In this document: positions 48,623 through 54,455 of the stretch, one piece after another
How the letters are laid out: each line of letters begins with the position of its first letter
How positions within the stretch are numbered: position 1 is the stretch's first letter
Assembly: GCA_902806085.1 (NCBI GenBank)
Contig: CADCVH010000101.1
Span: forward strand, 1-64,000
Reading direction: 5' to 3'
Origin: an uncultured Rubrobacteraceae bacterium
GTDB taxonomy: Bacteria; Actinomycetota; Rubrobacteria; Rubrobacterales; Rubrobacteraceae
Length of the DNA stretch: 64,000 bases
Program-made: the position numbers and the translations under genes
Notes under the pieces: generated by a model
The model's database searches: none
Seen by the model: the letters and a program-made list of their open reading frames with translations, nothing else
What the model was told of the DNA's origin: nothing

Positions 48623-49072
48623 ATGCCGGATACGGACCCAACTGGTCGCCCCCACCGCAACCACGGCCTCTTCTCAGATCACTACCTGAACGTCACGCCG
48701 CCCGGGCGGCCGGACTGGCAGGCGCTCGCCGGGGAGGCGAACGTGGTGCTAGCAGAGATCTCGCGCGTCCTCGACGCCCACGCGCCGAGCCAGAACGAGG
48801 CCCAGACCGAGGAGGACCTCGTCAGGCCCGTGCTCCGCGCCCGCGGCCACGAGGGAACCTACGAGGTGCAGCCCGCCCTCGCCACCCCCGAAGGCACCAA
48901 GCGCCCGGACTACGTCTTCTACCGGGACGCGGCCTCGCGGGATGCCAACAAGGACCTGAGGCTAACGGACGATCTGCTGGCGGGAAGCTCCTTCGCCGTC
49001 GGGGACGCGAAGTTCTGGGAGAGGCCGCTGGACGCCTCGCTGAAGACCGCGAACCGAGACGCTTTCTCGAAC
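48623..49072 (+). pseudogene. Type IIG (Eco57I-like) restriction-modification enzyme, 5' fragment
   Basis: 150 codons of the N-terminal part of a large single-chain restriction-methyltransferase. The sequence LFSDHYLNVTPPGRPDW, then SQNEAQTEEDLVRPVLRARG, RPDYVFYRD and FAVGDAKFWERPLDASL matches the family's nuclease-like N-domain (PD...D.K: the acidic residues of RPDY and GDAK). The family normally continues DPFSNKNPSYQ...; here the reading ends after RDAFSN at 49072 and element sequence begins. The frame stays open to 49156 by chance. The continuation NKNPSYQTAFYVQHAG is found at 62766. Confidence 0.85.
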
Positions 49073-50718
49073 GGCAAAGATTCCGAGTACAAAAGCGCGC
49101 CGCTTACCTCTATCCCCTCCAGCGTCGGCGTGACTTCCAGCTTGAGCAACCTGTAGACCTCCGACTTCTCCTCCGGAGCGAGTTCATCGAGGCCACGGAC
49201 CACGGCCTCCGAGCGTAAGGCGAGCACGGCCTCCTTGTCTTGGACGAGCTCCTCTACCCTTCGCCGCCGCTCGGAGAGGTTAGCGAGTTCGGTTTGCGCC
49301 AAGGTCTTCGCGCGCTTCAGCTCTTCGAGCTTGTCCGCGAGTTCGTTCATGGTCATGAGGCCGGACGCCTGCTGTTCCTGGTAGGCCGCCCTTAAGCGGG
49401 CGCACTCGCTAACCTTGCCTAGGAGGATCTCCGATTCCCGGTCCGGGCCGTCCGCGCGCCAGGACGCCTCCTGCTCTATCAGGCGGTCCATGCCGGCGGC
49501 GAGCTTCTGCGGGTCCTTCAAGAGTCCGCTCACGAGCTCCCACACGTCGGCCTCCAGCCTTTCCGCCCGGATCATCTTCTGCTGGCAGTCGCGGGAGCGG
49601 TCGCGACGGCCACGGCAGAAGTAGTAGTGGTAGACGCGCCCCTTCGAGGCGTTGGCCCTGACGGTGTGCGTGCCCATGAGTATGCCGCACGAGCAACGGA
49701 CCATCCCGCGCAGCTCCCACGGCCGCGCCAGGTGCTTGCGCTCGGGAGCCCTGTGGGCGGCCATGCGCTCGCGGGCCTCCTCAACCGTCTCGCGGGAGAG
49801 CAGCGGGCTCGACGGGACGGGGACGGCGATCCACTCGTCCTTGTCTCGCGGGAGGTAGCGGGTCCTCTTGCGCGAGGGCCCATCCGGGACGTAGCTCGTC
49901 TTCTTCTCGTGGCGGTTCCACCAACGCACGCCGTAGTTCTCGCCGGGCTCCAGTCCAGCCGCGACGCTCGGTGAGACGAGAGCCCGCACCTCCTCGCAGG
50001 AGTGCGGTAGGTAGATGTCGCTCATAACCACGCGCTTTATGACGTCCCTGCGCCACGTCTGGCCGCCGCGCGGGGCGGGCACGCCGAGCGTGTAGAGCCT
50101 GCCTTGTATCGCGTTGGGGCCGAGTCCCTTGGAGGCCATACGGAAGATGTCCACCACGGTCCCCATCTCTCCCTCATGGACCACGAGGCCGTCCCTGGTG
50201 TCGTTGTAGCGGAAGCCGTAGGGCGCCTTCATGGTGGGGACTATCTTCCCCTCTCGCGCTTTCTGGAGCTTGCCACGGCGGGTCCTCTTGGCTATGTCCT
50301 GCTTCTCCAACTTCGCCACCCCGCGCCGGATGTAGCGCATGAACTCGCCCATCGGCGAGTCGTCGCCGGAGTCGTCGAGGGACCTAAGCTCCGTCCGGTT
50401 GTCCTCGAAGAGGGAGCGCAGGTACTCGTAGTGCCAGGGTTCGCGACTGATGCGGTCGAGGTCCTGCGCGAGCACCACGGACACCCCGCCGCCGGCGACG
50501 AGCTCCCGCACGCGGTCCATCCCGGGCCGCTCCAGGCTCGCGCCGGAGTAGCCGGCGTCCGTGACCCCTTCGAGGACCTCATAGCCCTCAGTGGCCGCAT
50601 GCGAGCGCAGGGCTTCCATCTGCTGGGCGAGGGAATAACCGGAGCGGGCCTGCTCGTCCGTCGAAACGCGGGCGTAGAGGACGGCCTTCTTGGGGCCGCG
50701 GCCGTTCGTGTTCGGCAC
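48919..50718 (-). CDS. Large serine integrase
   Basis: A 599-residue recombinase. The resolvase domain starts KAVLYARVSTDEQARSGYSL with catalytic Ser19; VVLAQDLDRISREPWHYEYL follows; the recombinase domain starts near 165 (KAPYGFRYND); a zinc ribbon has CSCGILMG and YFCRGRRDRSRDC; a long coiled coil covers about 430-520. It catalyses integration and excision, needing no host factors apart from a directionality factor for excision. Only residues 1-549 are encoded by the element: the last 50 codons are antisense to the disrupted restriction-modification gene. In the circular form the protein would end LPLMNSHDYKRTLRFRALLS and be 581 residues long. Confidence 0.95.
   Translation of the reverse strand: MPNTNGRGPKKAVLYARVSTDEQARSGYSLAQQMEALRSHAATEGYEVLEGVTDAGYSGASLERPGMDRVRELVAGGGVSVVLAQDLDRISREPWHYEYLRSLFEDNRTELRSLDDSGDDSPMGEFMRYIRRGVAKLEKQDIAKRTRRGKLQKAREGKIVPTMKAPYGFRYNDTRDGLVVHEGEMGTVVDIFRMASKGLGPNAIQGRLYTLGVPAPRGGQTWRRDVIKRVVMSDIYLPHSCEEVRALVSPSVAAGLEPGENYGVRWWNRHEKKTSYVPDGPSRKRTRYLPRDKDEWIAVPVPSSPLLSRETVEEARERMAAHRAPERKHLARPWELRGMVRCSCGILMGTHTVRANASKGRVYHYYFCRGRRDRSRDCQQKMIRAERLEADVWELVSGLLKDPQKLAAGMDRLIEQEASWRADGPDRESEILLGKVSECARLRAAYQEQQASGLMTMNELADKLEELKRAKTLAQTELANLSERRRRVEELVQDKEAVLALRSEAVVRGLDELAPEEKSEVYRLLKLEVTPTLEGIEVSGALLYSESLPFEKASRFAVFSEASSGLSQNFASPTAKELPASRSSVSLRSLLASREAASR
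49043..49095. other. Predicted attL of the 13.7-kb element
   Basis: Host half: the codons for RDAFSN up to AAC at 49070-49072. Element half: 49073 onward, with the arm TACAAAAG at 49088-49095, 16 nt from the AA dinucleotide 49070-49071. Only AAC is shared with attR. Orientation and symmetry with CTTTTGTA at attR support the position. Confidence 0.75.
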
Positions 50719-53119: not shown

Positions 53120-53144
53120 CGGGTAGGTCCCCATACGGTGTAGA

Positions 53145-53694
53145 AAAGCGCGAGTTTCAGGAGCCGGTTAGCCTGACAGCAGTCTACTACCCGGCCTTCT
53201 CGCTCCAGGCGTCGTCGGGTGCGTGGCTGTGTGCCTGACCCTCTACTACAGCTTCGCCCGCTGCACGTACGGTAGAGGTGCACGGTGACGACCGTGCACC
53301 CGAGTGTTATGGTCGAGATAAACCTGCTTCGGAACCCTGGAGGGGGGATAAAGTGCCCGAAGCAGGTTTTAGTATTGTGCCACCGGCATGGTTGCATGCC
53401 GGATACGGTTCCGTTAAGAAGTGTTGCTCCTGGCGCCTCGGCTTGCAAGAGATGTGCCGTTCGGCCGATGCACCGCACCTTCTGCCCCTTGTAGGGTGTC
53501 CCCGAAGATCGGGAGAGGACCCATCCCCCCTAGGGTCCATCCCACGTCTTCTCTCAGGCCGGGCCCCGGCTTCATTACCCATCGACTACCTACACCCGGG
53601 CCCGGCTTTTTGCCCTGCCCCCGATCCTATCGTCTGGGCTTCCTGGCTTGTTAGCGCCTACCCTGCTGGTGCGTCCAGTACGGGGGAGGGGGGT
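53145..53694 (-). ncRNA. Candidate large structured non-coding RNA (about 550 nt)
   Basis: The 640-nt gap 53120-53759 holds no credible gene but at least ten local helices. Pairs (plus coordinates): 53150-54/53199-203; 53163-67/53191-95; 53206-10/53233-37; 53240-46/53272-78 with inner 53247-52/53260-65; 53277-86/53291-300 (10 bp, tetraloop); 53320-32/53357-69 (13 bp); 53383-90/53395-402 (8 bp, tetraloop); 53438-42/53464-68; 53501-05/53509-13; 53517-22/53533-38; 53558-66/53598-606 (9 bp). One inner pair is G-U on the minus strand but A-C on the plus strand, favouring minus transcription. A promoter-like TTGACG/TATAAG lies at the 5' end and GCTTTTCT follows the last helix. Ornate large RNAs such as GOLLD and ROOL occur in phages; membership is not established. 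Confidence 0.55.
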
Positions 53695-53729
53695 CTTATA
53701 CCCCCTCCGAAAACACGTCAACCGTGCAA
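53680..53729 (-). promoter_or_regulatory. Repeated promoter element, copy 1 (upstream of the structured RNA)
   Basis: Minus strand: ACGGTTGACGTGTTTTC, GGAGGGGG, TATAAG, ACCCCCCTCCCCCG. -35 TTGACG 53721-53716, 15-bp spacer, -10 TATAAG 53700-53695. GGAGGGGG and CCCCCCTCC form an inverted repeat around the -10. Copy 2 lies 727 bp away before groES. Confidence 0.55.
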
Positions 53730-53759
53730 CCCCTAAGAGCCGGGCCTCATGCTGCCTGA

Positions 53760-54407: not shown

Positions 54408-54455
54408 GGGGGGAGGGAGGTCTTGTATCCCCTCGGAAAACGGGTCAACCGTCCG
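54408..54455 (-). promoter_or_regulatory. Repeated promoter element, copy 2 (upstream of groES)
   Basis: Minus strand: ACGGTTGACCCGTTTTC, CGAGGGGA, TACAAG, ACCTCCCTCCCCCCG. -35 TTGACC 54448-54443, 15-bp spacer, -10 TACAAG 54427-54422; the same order and spacing as copy 1, with GAGGG/CCCTC around the -10. Confidence 0.55.

Follow-up and report, generated by a model that had tools for sequence, protein, structure and literature searches.

A candidate multi-copy family of C-rich-loop small RNAs and its apparently lineage-specific promoter in Rubrobacteraceae

The locus and its setting

The window analysed here is a 64,000-nt stretch of DNA from an uncultured Rubrobacteraceae bacterium, whose actinobacterial genome (G000) amounts to 4.41 Mb. 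A gap at 53120-53759 lies inside an integrated element, which encodes a large serine recombinase on the minus strand (48919-50718; Pfam Resolvase, 1.4e-30, with Recombinase and Zn_ribbon_recom) together with XRE regulators, an IrrE-type peptidase, a DUF4411 protein, groES and an NrS-1-polymerase-domain/AAA protein. The gap had been described from its letters as gene-free and rich in stems, and indeed no credible gene was found there and several strong local stems were confirmed. Some of these stems are not conserved, as exemplified by the perfect GGTGCACGGT/ACCGTGCACC stem at about 53278-53302, which is broken in the homologue of genome G004. The segment 53120-53185 is best assigned to the convergent neighbour gene rather than to an RNA, because it recurs jointly with the 3' part of that gene at contig C98 (L003; 88% over 188 nt). 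Resolvase genes are found near relatives of the RNA described below also in L060, L075 and L077. In these three loci and the window, the RNA is antisense to a pair of an XRE gene and a large serine recombinase gene and is situated 1-3 kb upstream of that pair, which suggests that integrative elements carry the RNA along with them.

A predicted small RNA gene on the plus strand

The conserved unit of the gap appears from its sequence to be a gene for an RNA of ~108 nt, here called A, on the plus strand at 53504-53612, with a promoter and a terminator of its own. It was delineated by its fold, by matches of a plus-strand covariance model (R2) and by covariation. The predicted transcript starts at about 53504 with a 5' hairpin (53504-53551) that in the predicted fold carries a six-C apical loop, AUCCCCCCUA (53523-53532); in alignment A4 its helices 1-3 have 82, 89 and 73% of cells paired, respectively, with double changes. 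A UCUC linker leads to a terminator hairpin, GCCGGGCCC...GGGCCCGGC, the hairpin proper occupying 53556-53606 and a UUUUU tract 53607-53611 (53556-53611 in all; 86% of A4 cells paired). Thus the sequence features of an intrinsically terminated sRNA gene, namely its own promoter, discrete hairpins, a U-tract terminator and no ORF, are all present in A. Most top-scoring copies have the C-run in their loop, and U-rich tails are clear in the window, L065 and L150 and weaker (UUC) in many other copies. In L150, which belongs to another genus (G017), the operator described below and TAACAT are followed by a hairpin-terminator of classical form, GCTGGACGTCC-GCCTCCCCCG-GGACGTCCAGC-TTTTT, with a C-rich loop.

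Fold, strand and scale

The preliminary description had proposed one large structured RNA of 640 nt read from the minus strand. When the whole 581-nt region was folded as one RNA, its advantage over shuffles was small whichever strand was read (minus strand, z -1.96; plus strand, z -2.07). Significant structure in the gap is local, residing in A (z -4.95 on the plus strand vs -2.91 on the minus strand) and in a hairpin called B (53369-53320; z -5.26). Non-Watson-Crick cells in the A stems read as G-U 43 times on the plus strand vs 18 on the minus strand in alignment A3, and 21 vs 9 times in A4, so that the strand assignment is reversed by both fold z and G-U counts. The earlier claim that the gap holds a candidate structured RNA therefore stands in another form, with A and a separate ~50-nt unit, B; the place was right, and strand, size and nature are corrected.

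A promoter-like sequence noted earlier at one end of the gap was confirmed on the minus strand at the high end, 53682-53725. It is a 44-nt repeat, TTGACG-N15-TATAAG-ACCCCCCTCCCCC, that lies on the far side of A and is directed into the region, and a second copy (86% identical) lies at 54409-54452 (-) upstream of groES; the exact pattern has 2 matches, with 0 expected. Further copies exist elsewhere, and in L077 and L067 the repeat lies 3' of A. The form TTGAC-N-GTTTTC-GAGGGG-TANAAG-CCCCCCTCCCCC, whose 15-nt spacer is conserved, is also seen in L007-L010, L012 and L015, some of these copies belonging to other genera. A Toprim/AAA replication-type gene of mobile elements is often close by, and in one case (L008) the sequence forms an inverted pair. 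The conservation is unusually long for a promoter. A single structured minus-strand RNA of ~500-640 nt starting from this repeat would be in keeping with the direction in which the repeat points, with its position 3' of A in the two loci above and with the presence of covariation in the region. On the other hand, the covariation is limited to the A unit, there is little conservation of stems other than those of A and B, the repeat is absent from most A copies, and Rfam searches were negative. Together with the whole-region z on the minus strand, the G-U counts and the explanation of the block with the highest sequence conservation as a DNA element (operator and -10) rather than RNA, these points make such a large transcript most improbable.

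Homologues and covariation

When the own genome was searched at the DNA level, further partial copies of the region came to light, and a copy in a sister species is 77% identical over 279 nt. At E<=0.1, the core covariance model gives up to 10-16 matches per genome within the genus, with a single clear case outside it, in another genus, and R2 finds 9 copies in G000, 12 in G002, 3 in G003 and 4 in G004 (E<=0.01). In the plus-strand alignment A4 of 11 copies, 84.7% of cells are paired and 7 pairs are doubly changed, and its covariation score is exceeded by only 3 of 500 shuffles and is lower on every slide; a minus-oriented set of 31 copies reproduces these helices, double changes being present in 20 of 24 pairs, none of 500 shuffles being as good and sliding abolishing the signal. 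These alignments were partly fitted to the structure, and their copies are related to each other. The compensatory changes, which had been named in advance as a check on homologous regions, and the sliding control indicate that this part of the window belongs to a real, multi-copy structured family. The family, its structure, promoter, distribution and neighbours were all computed in this way from the genomes.

Rfam, the other check proposed, gave no match in the whole window at the gathering score, no meaningful match in the region at E up to 10, and nothing relevant in homologous loci except a c-di-GMP-II riboswitch near one copy. Strict queries of phage records and IMG/VR also returned no match. 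The suggestion of a possible new RNA class is therefore reasonable, and the multi-copy C-rich-loop small RNAs of Rubrobacteraceae would form a new family. The riboswitch (c-di-GMP-II-GAG; L004 1123-1210, contig C102 of the own genome; 44.7 bits, above gathering) is a near neighbour of a further A copy, and PAS/EAL-type signalling genes are also in its vicinity. In G002, A-type modules stand in tandem at a distance of about 165-180 nt (L060 567-884; L061 2334-2668).

Not all copies appear intact from their sequences: the -10 is lost in some, for example those at C69 and L073, and the C-run is missing in others, for example L071 and L076. The copies are many, dispersed and divergent, some of them are truncated, and serine recombinases lie near several, as would be expected if they were decaying non-autonomous mobile repeats with structure devoid of RNA function. 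This is very unlikely, since copies with no more than 73-80% identity retain the exact operator/-10 spacing, the compensatory changes and the C-rich loop, and since in other genera this promoter stands before unrelated genes and drives them.

Operator and promoter

Upstream of A on the plus strand lies a palindromic operator, ATGTGCC-GTTC-GGCCGATGC (53452-53471), and the same 20-mer shape with a variable N4 is found at all A copies and upstream of secreted-protein and exopolysaccharide genes. A -10 hexamer, TAGGGT (TANNNT; 53492-53497), identified by spacing comparison and pattern searches, follows 20 nt after the operator, a distance kept (with a few cases of 18-19) in most copies that retain the -10. 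The general form is ATGTGCC-N4-GGCCGATGY, then TANNNT after 19-20 nt. Because this operator/-10 promoter precedes conserved hairpins and no gene in the window, A is taken as a plus-strand RNA gene.

On the minus strand the same element reads as the most conserved block, GCATCGGCCGAA-N-GGCACAT, which occurs alone in all six species tested, where it is antisense to and upstream of secreted-protein genes. On the strand of these genes, the block has the make-up of a promoter with a palindromic operator. The first covariance model (R1) had been built on the minus strand, where the block GCATCGGCCGAACGGCACAT seemed to be a third hairpin (P4) with weak pair counts; that reading was dropped when the solo copies upstream of secreted genes revealed the operator on the opposite strand. 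The solo motif was also considered as a target site in 5' UTRs, which is ruled out by its fixed distance to the -10. Some operator sites and degenerate copies stand directly upstream of secreted-protein genes (L070, L078), which would suit a cis-acting, riboswitch-like leader of a downstream gene. However, no plus-strand gene follows A in the window, a terminator hairpin with U5 forms the 3' end of A, a convergent gene faces several copies, and solo sites keep the promoter only and not the hairpins, so that a cis-acting role is distinctly unlikely.

The operator followed after 19-20 nt by TANNNT has 27 matches in 39 family genomes (in 15 genomes of 7 genera), and a reversed-pattern control has 0 matches in the same 39 Rubrobacteraceae genomes. 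Among 296 genomes from the phylum, there are 22 matches, all in the 27 Rubrobacteraceae genomes and none in the 269 non-family actinobacterial genomes. As judged from these pattern searches, the promoter type is peculiar to the Rubrobacteraceae lineage. A generic sigma-70/terminator scan found nothing because it is blind to promoters without -35 and to large-loop terminators. Variant operators, ATCACTC-ATTT-GAGGGATGC or ATCCTCC-AAWT-GYGGTATGC, precede copies in L065, L069, L060 (731-884), L061 (2513-2668), L016 and L067, in several loci with similar spacing to TANNNT, and perhaps reflect paralogous regulators of different specificity. LuxR-type or response-regulator genes adjoin operator sites in L080 and L088 and are regulator candidates. 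The operator resembles those of BldM and BldM-WhiI in Streptomyces, with TGnnCC-type half sites around a 4-bp centre (TGTGCCGTTCGGCCGA here; group II operator TGnnCCGnnCGGGTGA, PMC4125116), although the centre is variable here and the likeness is no more than a resemblance.

Hairpin B

B (53320-53369, minus strand) is a candidate second small RNA with a 13-bp stem and the loop GCACUUUAUCCCCCCUCCAGGGUU, which reads UUUAUCCCCCCUCC in the minus-strand RNA; both stem and loop are conserved in L077 of G004. A putative -10, CACAATACT (53371-53379, minus strand), was read from the sequences and corresponds to TACAAT in L016 and L067. Hairpins resembling B, with the loop UUaCCCCC(C)UCCU, U-rich tails and a TANNNT -10 just upstream, are located beside A in L016, L067 and L075, and L019 carries the same hairpin as L016. 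In L016 and L067 the variant operator ATCCTCC-AAWT-GYGGTATGC lies 18-19 nt before the TACAAT of the B-like hairpin, and B in the window is without the standard operator. B is probably transcribed from the minus strand, its strand being less certain than that of A.

Read from the plus strand, B in the window and in L077 is likewise preceded by a TANNNT box and has a U-rich tail. Plus-strand B would expose GGAGGGGGGAUAAA, in which AGGGGGGAU is a perfect 9-nt complement of AUCCCCCCU in the A loop. The locus might accordingly comprise a small RNA and its own sponge, with plus-strand B imitating a ribosome-binding site and tuning A as a loop-loop decoy, but this is improbable. A kissing loop between AGGGGGGAU and AUCCCCCCU was also considered for the minus strand and rejected, being a consequence of the identical 9-nt loop sequence that A and B carry on opposite strands.

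Regulon, proposed mechanism and targets

The genes behind the operator include Bac_transf (3-4 cases), WecG, RTX, Big_5, NlpC/P60 and a phytase with CBM96, and exopolysaccharide-initiating sugar transferases stand behind it in four species. Since the promoter of A also precedes exopolysaccharide glycosyltransferases and secreted proteins, A falls in an apparent extracellular-matrix regulon, most likely one peculiar to Rubrobacteraceae. This lineage-specific promoter would thus tie the new RNA family to exopolysaccharide and secreted-protein genes, and it offers a handle for finding the matrix regulon and its regulator.

Our preferred reading, which we hold to be likely, is that A (plus strand, about 53504-53612) is a gene for a trans-acting antisense RNA, and very probably B (about 53369-53320, minus strand) a second one. 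Transcription, regulator, targets and effect are inferred as follows. A putative dimeric activator, perhaps of the LuxR/response-regulator type, would bind ATGTGCC-N4-GGCCGATGC and turn on a promoter that, from comparison of copies, has no clear -35. The same promoter type, as judged by computed co-occurrence, would drive glycosyltransferases of exopolysaccharide initiation and secreted cell-surface proteins, and A would be made together with this extracellular-matrix programme. According to prediction and covariation, A would fold so that its 5' hairpin exposes AUCCCCCCUA and its 3' end is set by the intrinsic terminator. Translation of target mRNAs would then be blocked by pairing of the C-rich loop with their G-rich ribosome-binding sites, as with 6C and B11 in mycobacteria; by this analogy, A and B are most likely C-rich-loop antisense sRNAs.

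The leader of an operator-driven NlpC/P60 gene in the own genome pairs with the B loop at -26.2 kcal/mol (p 0.001) and with the A loop at -20.7 kcal/mol (p 0.006), both compared with random window segments. This was the one strong complementarity to a ribosome-binding site among nine regulon genes tried, and the NlpC/P60 gene is only suggestive as a target. Across all window genes, such complementarity is enriched, but this result was set aside because start codons had been picked by SD strength. The single strong match among nine genes would also fit a functional A that uses its C-rich loop to bind some other RNA or a protein instead; known actinobacterial C-rich-loop RNAs act on G tracts of ribosome-binding sites (PMC12395582), and a different partner is rather unlikely.

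Comparison with known RNAs

The gap had been likened to GOLLD and ROOL, with which A shares the nature of a non-coding structured RNA in a mobile element. The likeness does not hold further: A is about one fifth of their size and on a different strand, conserved structure is confined to ~108 nt instead of extending ornately over several hundred nt, and no Rfam family matches in the window at the gathering score, nor do GOLLD and ROOL in the region at E<=10.

The cuckoo/CcsR RNAs of alphaproteobacteria are multi-copy RNAs with C-rich anti-Shine-Dalgarno loops and are associated with a DUF1127 gene. CcsR1-4 form a tandem array (PMC10253847). A-type RNAs are likewise multi-copy sRNAs with putative anti-SD loops (CCCCCU/CCUCC), a likeness of design and not of descent, while they belong to another phylum, have an operator-based rather than an RpoH-type promoter and match no Rfam family. 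Among the neighbour genes listed for the copies, none stood out as DUF1127.

The closest analogues are the C-rich-loop RNAs of actinobacteria, which act on G tracts at ribosome-binding sites (PMC12395582, PMC9569102, PMC4046766). In 6C RNA/B11 (RF01066; Actinomycetota), as in A, about 100 nt form two hairpins, the last of which is the terminator, with a six-C run in a loop, whereas A has its own sequence, a promoter with a shared operator and several copies per genome. Two loops of about six C, typical of 6C, are not seen in A of the window, where the first loop is AUCCCCCCUA and the second has no C6 run; in L090 (about 2255-2340; G004:C132), the closest 6C look-alike in the set, both hairpins have CCCCCCUCCU loops. 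Membership of A and B in 6C was excluded by covariance-model search, none of the 39 Rubrobacteraceae genomes exceeding the gathering score of RF01066 (47 bits) and G000 having no match at E<=1, and the A family is regarded as analogous to 6C and not as a member. In mycobacteria, extra copies and mobile copies of 6C RNA are known (PMC9569102). B11 targets G tracts beside the ribosome-binding sites of lipooligosaccharide genes through the C-rich loop of its terminator, thereby controlling lipooligosaccharide synthesis and surface glycolipid genes (PMC12395582). If the preferred reading is true, an actinobacterial lineage that is deep and stress-resistant would realise the 6C-type strategy of C-rich loops with RNAs other than 6C, which mobile elements would carry and which would be linked to the cell-surface programme.
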